DNA of 24,433 nt, from IMG/VR virus record IMGVR_UViG_3300024518_001026, positions 1 through 24,433 of that record; one strand, 5' to 3'. Made by a program: the position numbers and the translations under genes. Below the pieces are notes generated by a model, which was given only the letters and a program-made list of their open reading frames with translations, searched no databases and was not told where the DNA came from. The DNA is from a virus. Below, piece by piece: positions 7,538-23,300 of this stretch (within the stretch, counting starts at the first letter, position 1; each line of letters starts with the position of its first letter).

Positions 7538-9971
7538 CTCCGTCATTAAATAATAAAATATTATCATTGTCTACTATTACAGTAGTTAATTTATCACCTA
7601 CTAAAACCTGTACTTTAGGACTGTATTTGATATTACTAATAGCGTTTAACTCATCTTCGTTTAAGTATTGACTAAATACAGATAATTCTTTATGAGCTAC
7701 TGTATTGATAGCATCTAGTTGGGTATCTCCATTTATAAAAGCATCATCCCAATTAGCAAATACATTACGCTTGATAGTATCTTTTGATTCTATATTAAGG
7801 TTATGGTCTTTCTCTGCTGTGAACTTCCAATAATCCCAACCTCCCAAAGTATTAAGCCACGTAATATAAATATCTTGATTAGCACATTCTCTATTAATAT
7901 TAAATGTTTTCTTTTCAGATAGGATACAAGTTTCACCACTAGATAATTGAATATCTATCTTTGCAGCATCAGAGTTATAAGTAGGTTCTACTCTATACAC
8001 TCCTGTATCTGTATAATCTATATCTTTTAATTCAGTTCTTAATAAAGCACCATTACTATCGTACTCGTTTTGAACATATCCAAATGATGTAGTATCATAT
8101 AAATCATATTTAGAGCCTATGTAATTATCTATTTGCCACTTCTTACAAGGGTCTATATCTAATGGTACTATTATCATCTCTGATATTTGACCATCTAAAT
8201 AGTTAGTACTAAACTTACCTATATTAGTATTCAACATCGGAACACTACCTAAGTCTCCCTCTGCTACTAAAACATTATCAACAAACATACAAGAGTTAGC
8301 ACCATCTATTACAGCCTTTACTACTGTGTTACTCCCTAATACGTATGGGTCAGGGTCTACTAAAGATGTTGAGCCGTTAAATAAGGCTAGTTTTCCTTCT
8401 GTAGATGTAGTAAAGAAAGCCATTCTACTAGCTTCGTCAGAATCCCATATCTGACTTTTAGTGTCTGCTTTAAATACTGTATAAACTACCATAGGTTGAG
8501 ATAGGTTTATATCCGTAGCAAAGTACTGATTAGTGCCATTAAACTCAACAGAAGGTAAACCATTAATACCAGAGGTTTTGTATATCGGTTCTTGTGTAGC
8601 TACCGTAGTAACTGATACGTTACCTGTTCTATCAATCCATGATGATACAGCAGTACTATCAGATTGACCAATATCAGAAGCCACTAACCACATATCTGCA
8701 ATGTCTGCTATATCTAAATCCTTATTGGTAGAACCATCTAAGATAATAGAAGTATCAAAGTACTCATTATCAAATATCGTAGGAATATTAAAGTTAGTCA
8801 TAAACTTACTATTAACATCTCTACCTATGTAATCGTACATATTACCGCCTCTACTATTCTGAAACTGTAAAGAACTATTATTACCCCAAAATAGATACTC
8901 ACATACTGTAGGACTTATAGATACATTGTCAACAGTAGCCTCTATAAATTGTACAGATGCATTAGTAAACTGAACCGCAATATATTGATAGTCGTTTGTA
9001 GGTATAAAGCTCTGTGATAGGTTTGGTGTATTAGATACATTAACAGATATAAGAGTATCAAAAGTGGATAGGTCATTACTTCCTAGTATCCTATACGTTA
9101 ACCCTCCACCGCTTTTAGTAATATTAGATTGTATTAAGTATTCTACATTAGCTACTAACTCAACCGCTTGATATAAATATTGTGACTTGCTATCAGTATC
9201 TAAGTTAACCTTTGCTACTCCTGTATCCCATACGAAGGTATCTCCTACCCCTGTTTGTGTCCATCCTGATAAATCAGTCGCAAAGTCACCATTAGTAACT
9301 AACTCATTACCACAACCAGCAACCTCATCTATTTCCCATGCAGTATAAACAGTTTCAATTACACCGTTTACATTCTCATCATATCCCTCTCTCCATTGAA
9401 TATAAAAACCTGTAAAACTACTTAGCTCTATACCTTCTGATAATTGGTTATTGAAAGTAATATCTGCTTTTATAATCCCACTAAAAGAAGCTATAATATC
9501 ATTATCCACATTAGGTATAACTCTTAAAGTTCCTACCTCTATAATTGGATTAGATGCGTAGTCAACGTGCCATGATGGTAAACCACCAAAAACTTTAACC
9601 TCTGAAAAGTAGTTAATATAATGCTTTTGTAATTCTCCTAATGCTAGAGTAGAATTGTAAGCAACATAAAGAACAAAGTTTTGAGTATCTATAACCTCTT
9701 TAACTCTCCAAATGTTATTGTATTCATCAATAGATGCATTAGTCATTTGAACATATTCACCTTCTAATACATTAGTCAAAGGTGTAACTAATTCAACTTG
9801 TAAGAACCCATCATTATTAGTAAAAGAAGCTGTAAAGCTAATTGGGTCTACACTATTAACAGGATACAAGTCGCTATTTAATTTGTATTGAATAGGTAGG
9901 TTAGTACAATTCCAAGTACTTGTATTACCGTCTATTTCTTTTGCTGGTCTACTGGTTACTGTTAATGCCAT
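7470..9971 (-). CDS. Large structural protein with lectin-like domains (receptor-binding candidate)
   Basis: An 833-residue protein. Residues 1 to about 215 form a beta-rich structural part starting MALTVTSRPAKEIDG. Residues about 220-355 look like a CBM4/9-type jelly roll: the entry motif ELVTNGDFATDLSGW, a long run of strands and the closing VDNVSI. Residues about 430-605 resemble a concanavalin-A/LamG-like fold (WIDRTGN, PSVEFNGTNQYFATD, VVYTVFKAD, YLDGQISEMIIVP). The remainder (to 833) returns to virion-type sequence. Carbohydrate-binding modules inside a tail protein suggest host surface-glycan recognition. The gene overlaps the connector gene upstream by 23 nt and the zinc-ribbon gene downstream. 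Its function is inferred from domain look-alikes; a minor tail or decoration role is the alternative. Confidence 0.75.
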   Translation of the reverse strand: MALTVTSRPAKEIDGNTSTWNCTNLPIQYKLNSDLYPVNSVDPISFTASFTNNDGFLQVELVTPLTNVLEGEYVQMTNASIDEYNNIWRVKEVIDTQNFVLYVAYNSTLALGELQKHYINYFSEVKVFGGLPSWHVDYASNPIIEVGTLRVIPNVDNDIIASFSGIIKADITFNNQLSEGIELSSFTGFYIQWREGYDENVNGVIETVYTAWEIDEVAGCGNELVTNGDFATDLSGWTQTGVGDTFVWDTGVAKVNLDTDSKSQYLYQAVELVANVEYLIQSNITKSGGGLTYRILGSNDLSTFDTLISVNVSNTPNLSQSFIPTNDYQYIAVQFTNASVQFIEATVDNVSISPTVCEYLFWGNNSSLQFQNSRGGNMYDYIGRDVNSKFMTNFNIPTIFDNEYFDTSIILDGSTNKDLDIADIADMWLVASDIGQSDSTAVSSWIDRTGNVSVTTVATQEPIYKTSGINGLPSVEFNGTNQYFATDINLSQPMVVYTVFKADTKSQIWDSDEASRMAFFTTSTEGKLALFNGSTSLVDPDPYVLGSNTVVKAVIDGANSCMFVDNVLVAEGDLGSVPMLNTNIGKFSTNYLDGQISEMIIVPLDIDPCKKWQIDNYIGSKYDLYDTTSFGYVQNEYDSNGALLRTELKDIDYTDTGVYRVEPTYNSDAAKIDIQLSSGETCILSEKKTFNINRECANQDIYITWLNTLGGWDYWKFTAEKDHNLNIESKDTIKRNVFANWDDAFINGDTQLDAINTVAHKELSVFSQYLNEDELNAISNIKYSPKVQVLVGDKLTTVIVDNDNILLFNDGDEETLYTIRFNIRFPDIQSQSQ

Positions 9972-19968: not shown

Positions 19969-21777
19969 TTAAAAGGGAGCATCTTCATTTATAATTTCTA
20001 ATGAATCTTCATCAAAATCTTTTGCTTTCTCCCATACTGATTTAGTTTCTATTTGCATCTGTTCAGGTTCTTTTTCTTTATGTATCGGGTTTGGGTCATA
20101 GTGTGTTCCTTGTGCGTAATATCTACCACTTGGTACATGATAATTAAAATTACGAGTTGCTCCTATTTCACCTTGAAAACTAAACTTAGTTTTAAGATTC
20201 TTGAATATTGTACATGGTGCATTTTGTTCATCTTCAAAAACTCTATAAACACAAAAACCGTCATGCGTTTGATTTCTAAAATCTGCACTACCTGAAACAT
20301 CATATAAGTTAGGCATATCATAAGCTCCTGTTTTTTCGTTCTTTTTCATCTTAGTAGGGTGAGCAACCAAGAATATAATAACATTATTTTGTTGAGCGAA
20401 TGAAGTTAACCGAGTTAGTACCTCACTAATCAAATGCCTGTTTTCTCCTGTCTTATCAAATAGAACTTTGTTAAAAGCATCTATTACAAATATGTCTATA
20501 CCATATCCGTATATTTGTTCTTTAAACTTTTCAAACAACCAATCCCACGTAGGCGACTCATTTTGTTCAGGTGCTGTTAAATATATCTTTTCATTAGCCC
20601 ACTTTTTATATTTCTCTATTTCAGGTCTTGTAATCCTTTCTACTCCGTCAATAGTTCCAAAGAATGGTTTACCAAAAAACTTTTGCATTAGGTTAGATTG
20701 GTGTAATTCTAATGGGTGATGTTCTGGACTAAACCAACTAGATTTTAAGTTATAATCTTCTAGCAAGTTCATAATATACCAGTCCGTAAAGTTAGACTTA
20801 CCATGTGATGGTATACCTGTAACGGTTACAAGATGCCCACGCATAACGCTAAACATATCACTCATCCCAGTAAACCAATTACCTTTAGGGTGTATTGTAT
20901 CAGGTAGCCCACTATCATAAAGTTTGTAAATATCACTTTCTAAATCTTCTACTTTGAAAGTTCCAGATACTGGATATTTTTTAGGGTTATTTAATGACTC
21001 TTCTAAAGTAAATACAGACTCTATCAAATCATCATTAGCATCTTTGTTTTTAAAAGTAATACGTTCACATCTATAACGACCTAACCTTTGAGCTATCTTT
21101 TCTGCTATGTCGTTTCCTTTCTCATCCATATCAGTACAGATGTAGAACTTTTCAATAGTTGATAGATATTGTTCGCAGTTAGACCAAACATCATCATTAT
21201 CATTAGCTCCATTAGGTACGCTAATACAATTCTTTTTTCCTACTTCCCAAAGTGCTAACTTATCAAATTCACCTTCTACAATATAACACTCCTTTTCTCC
21301 TACAATATCATTGATTCCGTAGAATATGTTTTTAGTGTTTTTGCTTTGTGTAAACTTCTTATCTCCTGACCTGTATTTTTTATTTACAAGTGTTGAACCT
21401 TCAAAGTAATTGAATACAATATTAGATACTTTTTTACTTAAAGCTGGTTGGTAGTACTCTTCCTCTGTTACCTTACACTCAATAATAGTCTTCTGGCTTA
21501 TTCCTCTCGATTCTAAGAACTTTAAAACCCTATCTGATACCTTTGTATAGTTCGCCCAATTTGAAGGCGGTAAATCAAAAGTTTTGTTTTCAGGTTTACT
21601 TTTAAAATCTCTGATTGTAATTTCCTCGCAGTAATGACATTTGCCAATTCCTTTGTCAAGGTCAACACTTAAAGCGGTATCTTTTTTATTGCTTCGAGTA
21701 TGTGAGCAACTAGGACAAATTACTTTTACTTGACCGCTTTTTTTATTCTTAAAATCTATGTCATCCCAGTTTATCAT
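19969..21777 (-). CDS. Bifunctional primase-helicase (T7 gp4-like)
   Basis: A 602-residue protein with a zinc-binding domain (Cys21, Cys24, Cys47, Cys50 in CPSC and CHYC), a TOPRIM domain with the catalytic Glu in YIVEGEFDKL (165-174) and the DMDEKG acids (216-221), and a DnaB-like helicase domain. The helicase part has the Walker A-like GIPSHGKS (321-328) and Walker B IDIFVIDAF (427-435), followed by FLVAHPTK. It primes lagging strands with RNA and unwinds the fork as a ring. The start overlaps the DUF6291 gene stop by 4 nt (ATGA). The domain order is the same as T7 gp4 and TWINKLE. The acidic C terminus (DSLEIINEDAPF) may contact a polymerase, which is not in this window. Confidence 0.92.
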   Translation of the reverse strand: MINWDDIDFKNKKSGQVKVICPSCSHTRSNKKDTALSVDLDKGIGKCHYCEEITIRDFKSKPENKTFDLPPSNWANYTKVSDRVLKFLESRGISQKTIIECKVTEEEYYQPALSKKVSNIVFNYFEGSTLVNKKYRSGDKKFTQSKNTKNIFYGINDIVGEKECYIVEGEFDKLALWEVGKKNCISVPNGANDNDDVWSNCEQYLSTIEKFYICTDMDEKGNDIAEKIAQRLGRYRCERITFKNKDANDDLIESVFTLEESLNNPKKYPVSGTFKVEDLESDIYKLYDSGLPDTIHPKGNWFTGMSDMFSVMRGHLVTVTGIPSHGKSNFTDWYIMNLLEDYNLKSSWFSPEHHPLELHQSNLMQKFFGKPFFGTIDGVERITRPEIEKYKKWANEKIYLTAPEQNESPTWDWLFEKFKEQIYGYGIDIFVIDAFNKVLFDKTGENRHLISEVLTRLTSFAQQNNVIIFLVAHPTKMKKNEKTGAYDMPNLYDVSGSADFRNQTHDGFCVYRVFEDEQNAPCTIFKNLKTKFSFQGEIGATRNFNYHVPSGRYYAQGTHYDPNPIHKEKEPEQMQIETKSVWEKAKDFDEDSLEIINEDAPF

Positions 21778-22406
21778 AATACGTTAACCTCCCAAGGTTT
21801 TTTAGTTTCTTTGTTTGATTGTTCTTTGAACTTATCCCAAAATAAACCAGTCCATTGATTATTGATTGAATTGGTTACGGCAAATTCACACTCTTTCAAA
21901 GTTGCCTTATTGAATTGGTCTATCAAACTGTTTAAGGTTTTCTTTGCCTTGATTGGTTTTTTAATTTCCTTTCTGTATCCAATCCATTCAGAAAAAACAA
22001 CCTCTTTATCTTTATTTATTACATTAACATTAACAGTATCATTTACATTAACATTAACATTAACATTATCATTTACAGTTGGATTTGTTGAAGTTTGTTT
22101 AACATTTTTAACATTTGTTGAATTTGTTAACTCTTGTTCCCTCTTTAATCTTCTAGCTTCTGCTGATGCTTTACCAGCTTTACTTCTACCTTCTTTAGTA
22201 GTACCCCACTTATCTAAATCCCTTTTTAACTGTTGTTTAATAGGTTCAAAGGCAATTTTAGTAATAGGGTTATCCGTTACTGGACTTTCATCATTTACAT
22301 AACTAAGAATATGTTTAAATAAATTTCCAGCTTGTTCATCCGTTAAGTGTTTAACAGTATGTTGCAAATCTGCATACAATACAAATGATTTTTTATCAGC
22401 AGCCAT
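21774..22406 (-). CDS. DUF6291-type replication-region protein
   Basis: A 210-residue protein. Residues 1-75 match my memory of DUF6291: SFVLYADLQHTVKHLTDEQA, then LFKHILSYVND, KIAFEPIKQQLKRD. A basic linker (GRSKAGKASAEARRLKREQE) is followed by a low-complexity VN repeat (111-129). The C-terminal region (PIKAKKTLNSLIDQF, then TNSINNQWTGLFWDKF) resembles the end of phage replication initiators and helicase loaders. It overlaps the primase-helicase gene by 4 nt, so a role in starting replication is likely. The VN region is coded by a six-base DNA repeat that could act as origin iterons. A 15-bp palindrome spans its start codon. Confidence 0.72.
   Translation of the reverse strand: MAADKKSFVLYADLQHTVKHLTDEQAGNLFKHILSYVNDESPVTDNPITKIAFEPIKQQLKRDLDKWGTTKEGRSKAGKASAEARRLKREQELTNSTNVKNVKQTSTNPTVNDNVNVNVNVNDTVNVNVINKDKEVVFSEWIGYRKEIKKPIKAKKTLNSLIDQFNKATLKECEFAVTNSINNQWTGLFWDKFKEQSNKETKKPWEVNVL
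22021..22076 (+). repeat. Tandem hexamer repeats inside DUF6291 gene (origin candidate)
   Basis: On the plus strand the unit ACATTA recurs two to four times in a row in two blocks split by ACAGTATCATTT, ending ACATTATCATTTAC. It encodes VNVNVN. Further copies of TTAACATTT and TTTGTTGAA lie at about 22083-22130. Iterons within a replication initiator gene are the layout of lambdoid origins. The coding need for Val-Asn alone does not force this near-perfect base repetition, but slippage of low-complexity DNA could. Confidence 0.6.
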
Positions 22407-22418
22407 TATTCAATAATG
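22404..22418. promoter_or_regulatory. Palindrome across DUF6291 start codon
   Basis: CATTATT-C-AATAATG (7-bp arms) covers the ATG at 22404-22406. A perfect 12-bp palindrome TATTTTAAAATA lies at 22421-22432, next to the preceding terminator. Either could be an operator or an mRNA hairpin hiding the start, but AT-rich DNA yields such palindromes easily. Confidence 0.35.
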
Positions 22419-22425
22419 TTTATTT

Positions 22426-22526
22426 TAAAATAAAAAAGCCTTTGTTATCCAGTAGCTCACGACTTCCACTTTCAAACAAAGGCAATATTAATTTCTTTTA
22501 TATGCTATAATGTCGTGAGGCATATA
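22426..22526 (-). ncRNA. Candidate ~100-nt structured RNA with H-type pseudoknot
   Basis: The gap between antirepressor and DUF6291 genes has an exact TATATTTG -7 box (22532-22539) and ends in a terminator (22431-22483). On the minus strand CTCACGAC (22519-22512) can pair with GTCGTGAG (22463-22456), which lies inside the loop of the GCCTTTGTT/AACAAAGGC terminator stem (22483-22475 with 22446-22438). The order of 5' arms and 3' arms is that of an H-type pseudoknot with 8- and 9-bp stems. No ORF is present. It may be a free small RNA or a leader attenuator whose first stem competes with termination. Confidence 0.45.
22431..22483 (-). terminator. Long-loop intrinsic terminator
   Basis: The stem GCCTTTGTT/AACAAAGGC (9 perfect bp, 22475-22483 with 22438-22446) closes a 28-nt loop and is followed by TTTTTTATTTT on the minus strand. 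It should end transcription from the antirepressor operon or from the small RNA. The large loop is odd for a terminator and contains the pairing partner of an upstream element. Confidence 0.75.
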
Positions 22527-22531
22527 CGATA

Positions 22532-22539
22532 CAAATATA
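22532..22539 (-). promoter_or_regulatory. Bacteroidetes-type -7 promoter box
   Basis: TATATTTG on the minus strand is an exact TAnnTTTG, the -7 element of Bacteroidetes promoters. No clear TTG is found at the expected 19-nt distance upstream, so the promoter may be weak or activator-dependent. A start near 22525 would begin the candidate small RNA. Confidence 0.42.
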
Positions 22540-22544
22540 AGCAA

Positions 22545-23300
22545 TTAATTAAACATATCCTCTTGACAAGGTTTTTTATATAATCTTTTAAATAAATATT
22601 CAATACCTTTATTTGTTACTAGAGTTTGTTTCTTTATTATATGGCAACCGTTACTACCTACAATTTCATTAACCTTTAATGCTAAATGTCCTTTGTTAAC
22701 AGATGTTTGCATAGGCTCTGTACTTCCTTTAAATACCATTCCTAAACCACGCATAAACTTGTATAGGTTTTTAGACCCCATAATAGGAATACCTCTACCC
22801 TCTAATATCTTAGCTGCTTGTCCTACTTTGTGAGTAGTAACATCATCAGCCATGATGTGGTCAGCTAACTGAACTTTAGGCTTATTTATAGCTATGTCTT
22901 TTTGTTGTATACTTACCAATAAATTAAGCTCTTCGTTTTCATTTAATAAAGCCAATTGTCTAGTCAATAACTCTTTTTCTGTTAGTTTTTTAGGTATACT
23001 TAATTTAAGACTCTTTTCGCAGTCTATAAAGTACTTTCTAGCTTGTTTACCTTTGTCTGACCTTTGAATCATTGATAACTCTTTTGCCATGTCTAAGGTT
23101 ATAGCGTATTCAGTTGCATCTTGACCCCGAACATTTTTGGTCACCCTTTCAAAATCAACACCTTCTTCAAACCCGTAGTCAATCATTCTAGGCATCCATG
23201 TCCTAAATTGAGTACTGACATCTAAAAACCCGTGTAACTCTCTTGCAGATACTACTTGTGAGCCTTGCTCATTTGTAGTGATGTTTATTAAATTGTTCAT
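22545..23300 (-). CDS. Phage antirepressor (AntA plus KilAC domains)
   Basis: A 251-residue protein with an N-terminal AntA-type domain (about 15-80): SARELHGFLDVSTQFRTWMP, GFEEGVDF, AITLDMAKELSMIQRSDKGK. The C-terminal KilAC domain (about 145-245) has ADHIMADDVTTHKVGQAAKI, LYKFMRGLGMVF and LVTNKGIEYLFKRLY. Antirepressors inactivate phage repressors after induction or in competing prophages, and KilAC is the DNA-binding part. The gene lies 6 nt after a ribbon-helix-helix gene and is followed by a small-RNA-like unit, forming a compact control module. No repressor is seen in the window. Confidence 0.87.
   Translation of the reverse strand: MNNLINITTNEQGSQVVSARELHGFLDVSTQFRTWMPRMIDYGFEEGVDFERVTKNVRGQDATEYAITLDMAKELSMIQRSDKGKQARKYFIDCEKSLKLSIPKKLTEKELLTRQLALLNENEELNLLVSIQQKDIAINKPKVQLADHIMADDVTTHKVGQAAKILEGRGIPIMGSKNLYKFMRGLGMVFKGSTEPMQTSVNKGHLALKVNEIVGSNGCHIIKKQTLVTNKGIEYLFKRLYKKPCQEDMFN

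Follow-up and report, generated by a model that had tools for sequence, protein, structure and literature searches.

The DUF6291 and primase-helicase genes of this viral record are preceded by a promoter box and two hairpins with complementary apical loops, one at the 5′ end and the other that of an intrinsic terminator, and this element appears to represent an undescribed RNA family in phages of Bacteroidota. The family is widespread and has an unusually clean signature, in that compensatory changes, dozens of them, have preserved the complementarity of the terminator loop to the loop of the 5′ hairpin. We consider it reasonably probable that the element is a cis-acting terminator-leader that limits replication-gene expression and is also released as a small RNA. 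Very little has been described of how phages of Bacteroidota control expression post-transcriptionally; neither Bacteroid- nor Flavobacter- is mentioned in a 2025 review on small RNAs in phages (PMC12197685), and literature searches returned no description of the present RNA. The family provides a concrete, cheaply testable model of how replication-gene dosage is set in Bacteroidota phages, a means of locating the starts of replication operons in phages that have not been cultured, and a natural range of kissing-loop regulators of use for Bacteroides genetics.

The element in the window

The window, which is the whole stretch of DNA analysed, is a viral record of 24,433 bases in which every phage gene lies on the minus strand. 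The element occupies 22432–22539 on that strand, and its parts and neighbours are as follows:

22545–23300, minus: AntA/KilAC antirepressor, the upstream codirectional gene (Pfam)
22532–22539, minus: −7 promoter box of the Bacteroidota type, TATATTTG (sequence; kept in relatives)
22499–22526, minus: hairpin 1, 7-bp stem TATATGC/GCATATA with a 14-nt loop, CTCACGACATTATA (sequence, covarying helix)
22520–22526 / 22499–22505, minus: arms of the hairpin 1 stem (sequence)
22512–22519, minus: kissing arm 1, CTCACGAC, the 5′ part of the hairpin-1 loop (CTCACGAC-ATTATA) (covariation)
22484–22498, minus: unpaired A/U-rich linker (AAGGWATTATTNA is the conserved form in relatives)
22438–22483, minus: terminator hairpin (sequence; outer and inner helices covary)
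22475–22483 / 22438–22446, minus: terminator outer stem, a perfect 9 bp, GCCTTTGTT/AACAAAGGC (sequence)
22456–22463, minus: kissing arm 2, GTCGTGAG, in the terminator apical loop (sequence, covariation)
22427–22437, minus: U-tract of the intrinsic terminator, TTTTTTATTTT (sequence)
22404–22418, minus: CATTAT-TGA-ATAATG, a perfect 6-bp hairpin in the read-through RNA (sequence, window alone)
21774–22406, minus: DUF6291 protein gene, downstream (Pfam)
19969–21777, minus: primase-helicase gene, next after DUF6291 (ORF list, protein search)

The minus-strand order is TATATTTG-tatcg-TATATGC(CTCACGACATTATA)GCATATA-linker-GCCTTTGTT-TGAA-AGTGG-AA-GTCGTGAG-CTACT-GGAT-AACAAAGGC-TTTTTTATTTT, with 5 nt between the box and the first paired base of hairpin 1 (3–5 nt in relatives). 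An earlier note on this DNA had described the box, the CTCACGAC/GTCGTGAG pairing, a 9-bp terminator holding the second arm in its loop, and the lack of an ORF; all are present on the minus strand, and our search of the gap found no ORF of at least 50 aa. Promoter box, structured RNA and terminator are all there in the sequence, in agreement with its description of a self-contained RNA unit. The G+C-containing stem, with a U-run directly after it, is a predicted intrinsic (Rho-independent) terminator. Within it, an internal loop (TGAA/GGAT), probably of the tandem G.A type, is followed by an inner stem (AGTGG/CTACT) and the apical loop with arm 2. The note had read the arm order as an H-type pseudoknot but had overlooked hairpin 1. 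Because arm 1 lies in the hairpin-1 loop and arm 2 is capped by the inner stem, the 8-bp pairing is a loop–loop kissing contact between two hairpins, and the plain H-type fold was dropped once hairpin 1 had been seen and its covariation shown.

An 8-nt inverted repeat occurs in 22% of dinucleotide shuffles of the window gap and is therefore unremarkable by itself. A terminator stem of at least 9 bp occurs in 1.3% of such shuffles, and a repeat together with a terminator of at least 9 bp carrying one arm in its loop in 1 of 3000. The minimum free energy z-score of the element is −2.1 with the kissing pairs left out. The decisive evidence for the window structure is comparative and not these shuffle statistics.

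In read-through RNA, the DUF6291 start codon (22404–22406) would lie within the 3′ arm of the CATTAT-TGA-ATAATG hairpin, the 5′ arm of which repeats part of the hairpin-1 loop (ACATTAT). Short ATTAAC/ATTTAC-type repeats are also found in the DUF6291 gene at 22040–22080 (plus-strand numbering), where they encode a central N-V-N-V stretch of the protein.

Relatives and distribution

A search with the DUF6291 protein yielded 80 viral loci, and the DNA directly upstream of the gene was compared. Many of these loci have the same architecture with different arms, for example CTCTCAC/GTGAGAG (L016), CTTCCAC/GTGGAAG (L019) and CATCCGAC/GTCGGATG (L022), and the promoter box is kept in relatives from this search, which is independent of the box. 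A pattern free of arm sequence (box, linker motif and terminator end) found the element in at least 120 uncultured phage contigs. Among 93 distinct stretches compared, 82 have at least 6 nt complementary between their 5′ and 3′ parts, compared with ∼28% when arms are swapped between loci. Nearly all members come from uncultured contigs, several of them near-duplicates; the cultured carriers, Cellulophaga phi13:2 and Tenacibaculum Gundel_1, belong to two phage groups, and a blastn match in Cellulophaga phage phi19:3 covers the adjoining coding region. Searching with the exact arms gave a sole match, in L082, which is a chance look-alike in an unrelated context.

A host-encoded RNA was considered and set aside: none of 395 Bacteroidia genomes had a match, although this is weak evidence since the many-genome scan is shallow and scores few candidates per genome, and no convincing match was seen in six genomes with DUF6291 genes. 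The same shallow scan found no prophage copy. A multi-copy regulon within each phage was likewise rejected, as 35 whole records contain one strong type A copy each. The contig L131 carries a type A element at 7886–7983 (minus) and a second, type-B-like element ∼2 kb upstream on the minus strand, each ahead of its own gene; their arms differ (GGCTTCAC versus GTTACGG), an indication that pairing takes place within each copy. The Flavobacterium phages elemo and lillamy/tooticki/hemulen have a DUF6291 gene and do without the element, which is therefore not essential to that gene. Rfam 15 gave no match for the window at the gathering score and none at E up to 2 for 11 loci of several subtypes, c4 (RF01695) included.

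Covariation in type A

The window has the parts common to type A members, namely the box, hairpin 1, a terminator with internal loop and inner stem, and loop complementarity. We aligned 36 phage type A members over 26 base pairs in four helices, the kissing helix among them. The covariation among relatives that the earlier note had proposed as a check is abundant: 97.0% of cells are paired (96–97% in each of the four helices), and 23 of the 26 pairs show double-sided changes. There are 236 double-change cells, compared with 62 ± 6 in shuffles, and the slid controls have 16–24. For the kissing helix taken separately, pairing is 96.4% and six of the seven pairs have double-sided changes; RNAalifold, unaided, returns the same nested structure. 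The linker, mostly 13–15 nt among these members, is long enough to span along the terminator stem.

The A1 members had been chosen by a detector that requires complementary loops, and the test was repeated on sets not so chosen. A covariance model built on the nested helices only, with the kissing pairs left out, was run over 99 loci and gave 61 matches, one strong copy per locus, although its training set overlapped the loci searched. A loop–loop complement of at least 6 nt is present in 60 of these 61 matches; counting distinct loop pairs, 31 of 32 are complementary, compared with ∼21% for swapped loops. The window, which is among the model's own sequences, scores 64.2 bits (E 1.6e-9). A structured RNA is thus supported as far as sequence alone permits.

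We found no conserved anti-terminator that would exclude the terminator: RNAalifold returns one structure with no conserved competing helix. The switch part of a classical transcription attenuator, defined by mutually exclusive structures, is therefore missing. No ligand-type conserved core of the kind that marks a riboswitch was noted in the relatives, where the loops vary freely.

Type B and the third copy

In type B members the hairpin-1 loop is 6–7 nt and the terminator carries an AGTA/GAA internal loop, which we take as a probable sarcin–ricin or loop-E signature. The inner stem covaries (GTG/CAC, CCG/CGG, GGA/TCC, ACG/CGT), and the kissing helix is 100% paired with variation at two of its six positions. 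The exact hairpin-1 arm occurs again directly upstream of the downstream start codon in 18 of 20 members. A fresh pattern search in which this third copy was not used found 62 new members, 49 of which have the exact 6-mer at the expected position, eight sequence versions being represented; arms of other members were found at that position in 0 of 434 comparisons. The third copies are always sense and therefore complementary to the terminator loop. Within the loci examined they occur only at the immediately downstream gene, and further mRNA targets with arm copies in their start regions, which we also considered, were not found there.

A third copy is also present in a few type A members (CTTCGAC in L119, L124 and L144) and in an unrelated leader, L003 (GGTATCA). 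The window has no CTCACGAC copy before the DUF6291 start and so lacks this mark of type B. BLAST of type B elements against cultured phages gave no credible match.

Genomic context

The element usually heads a DNA-replication operon. In 112 of 114 cases the gene upstream has the same orientation, and its stop codon usually falls 4–14 nt before the promoter box; in the window the antirepressor stop codon is 5 nt before the box, the commonest spacing in relatives. The terminator has a canonical U-tract in nearly all members, with a T-run of 5–8 after the stem in relatives. The downstream start codon lies 17–27 nt past the terminator stem in most loci (about 24) even though the first genes are unrelated, too short a distance for a further promoter; the DUF6291 start of the window is at 31 nt. 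These first genes encode DUF6291, replisome-organiser/DnaD-like or HNH proteins, or ∼60-aa proteins followed by a replication gene, and a DnaB/primase-type ATPase commonly comes next; other first genes are Ant in Gundel_1 and a thymidylate-synthase-like operon in L161/L034. The PHROG neighbours of the window DUF6291 protein are primosomal protein and replication initiation O-like. Upstream proteins that were sampled often have a DnaA C-terminal domain (Bac_DnaA_C-like; E ∼1e-6, just below the Pfam cut-off).

These neighbours fit a DNA-replication operon and not lysogeny regulation, so that the regulatory module in which the earlier note had set the RNA does not describe the relatives, whereas the attenuator-like position it proposed ahead of the DUF6291 and primase genes agrees with the gene order. 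Its antirepressor neighbour is real in the window but is not a general rule: a search with the window protein found only three distant relatives, the neighbour gene varies, and we gave up the antirepressor as a defining neighbour. In the cultured phage Gundel_1 (L221, 3001–3097) the element is directly upstream of the annotated anti-repressor (Ant) gene.

Proposed mechanism and alternatives

Sequence comparison establishes the fold (by covariation), the placement and the third copy of type B; termination in vivo, the direction of regulation and the role of kissing are what we infer. Transcription from the element's own TATATTTG promoter would give a structured RNA of about 95–105 nt, in which the 5′ hairpin and the intrinsic terminator hairpin fold and their apical loops kiss. 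Most transcripts would end at the U-tract and be released as a stable small RNA (∼95 nt), and a minority would read through into the replication operon. Of 123 loci, 116 lack a promoter box between the terminator and the start codon (the other seven have one), which indicates that the operon depends on read-through; with the replication genes expressible only in this way, the RNA would act first in cis. The kissing complex may stabilise or time the terminator hairpin, and the leader would set, and probably regulate, the amount of transcription entering the operon. In type B and the few type A members with a third copy, the terminator loop could pair instead with the start-codon copy, adding translational control. 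Since hairpin 1 and the start-codon region are both possible partners of this loop, hairpin 1 of type B would be a competitor. A further extension, that the sense loop, antisense terminator loop and sense start codon form a three-copy circuit metering the replication genes, with the arms as an address through which the RNAs of co-infecting phages with the same arms interfere, is speculative and rather doubtful; if true, it would be a phage counterpart of plasmid incompatibility.

The terminated RNA might instead accumulate and act mainly in trans, its terminator loop pairing with mRNA start regions, including that of its own read-through mRNA, while the operon is served by read-through or upstream transcription. 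The complete small-RNA anatomy seen in the sequence, the unfailing complementarity of the type B start-codon copy to the terminator loop, and the precedent of short IsrK acting on its own read-through isoform (PMC4825925) are consistent with this. We nevertheless regard it as unlikely: the sole start-region copy is at the immediately downstream gene, with no second target gene in the loci examined, the terminator loop is already held by the RNA's own hairpin 1, and a third copy is absent from the window, as from most type A members. It is less likely again that the element is an immunity or heteroimmunity RNA like P1 c4 or P4 CI, blocking the replication operons of incoming phages with the same arms. 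The copy–anticopy–copy layout of type B, the many arm sequences across relatives and an antirepressor gene next to the element in the window, and immediately downstream of it in Gundel_1, would suit such a role. However, the kissing arms show no higher rate of change than the inner stem (∼30% versus 44% of cells with double changes in type A) and so give no sign of extra diversification, only two of six arm positions vary in type B, and no prophage copy was seen in the 395 Bacteroidia genomes at the sensitivity used.

In most loci the element has a DnaA-like gene on one side and a helicase-loader-like gene on the other, which could also mean that a promoter–terminator transcript primes or opens a phage origin, the nearby genes simply reflecting it. 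This is very improbable, because non-initiator genes are also headed by the element (Ant in Gundel_1, the thymidylate-synthase-like operon in L161/L034), and because start-codon third copies and compensatory RNA pairs favour control of the mRNA at the RNA level. A strong promoter with a constitutive terminator that shields the operon from transcription entering from upstream, with a purely structural role for the kissing, would accord with the canonical U-tract terminators and with our finding no mutually exclusive structure. But a promoter ahead of an insulating terminator would be pointless, and both the loop complementarity kept through many compensatory changes and the third copy would go unexplained; we give this reading similarly little credence. 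The cis-acting terminator-leader remains our preferred interpretation.

Comparison with known systems

In plasmids of the IncI-alpha, IncB and IncL/M groups a pseudoknot controls translation of the replication initiator, as Asano and Mizobuchi reportedly described in 1998 for repZ of ColIb-P9 (cited in PMC10724649). Type B would be similar in that a loop in a replication-gene leader pairs just upstream of the start and has a competitor, but that competitor is a separately transcribed antisense RNA in the plasmids and a hairpin of the leader itself in type B, where the loop also belongs to a transcription terminator. The phage P4 CI RNA shares with c4 of P1/P7 (RF01695) a likeness to the type B layout. 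Like our element, c4 is a phage RNA ahead of early or antirepressor genes, with loops complementary to downstream starts (PMC12197685). In contrast to c4 and P4 CI, the present RNA has its own promoter and terminator, intramolecular kissing and a replication-operon context, and no Rfam match.

The pT181-type rep attenuator is also a terminator-leader before a replication gene with kissing as the recognition step, but it requires both an antisense RNA and an anti-terminator incompatible with the terminator (PMC4878617), neither of which is among the parts recognised here. IsrK of the Salmonella prophage Gifsy-1 is a single prophage RNA with a short and a read-through isoform. It resembles the scheme proposed here in having a phage promoter, a short RNA that is terminated and, beyond it, a read-through mRNA, and a leader able to pair near the downstream translation start (PMC4825925). 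It differs in its long mutually exclusive helices, where our element has 6–9-bp loop–loop kissing, and in its hosts and genes, and no sequence or structural relation tested positive. By analogy, the element would work most like IsrK and the loop-pairing replication control of plasmids (pT181, repZ of ColIb-P9), although by the tests run the window element is a member of neither the IsrK, the pT181 nor the repZ type.

Other leaders

Several leaders (L003, L010, L013, L047, L064, L066, L073, L075 and L197) have the layout of box, hairpin 1, terminator and kissing loops with no obvious sequence similarity; the design may recur among them or may have diverged past recognition. Another leader, with a promoter box and no terminator, lies ahead of DUF6291 genes in three viral contigs only (L322, L323 and L324, minus; the contigs of L322 and L324 also carry the labels L012 and L033). 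It has a junction-like fold, TTCAACGAGG-loop-TTCCTG, and its loop (TATACGTT or TCAAGTT) has a complement, AACGTATA or AACTTGAA, immediately before the start codon.
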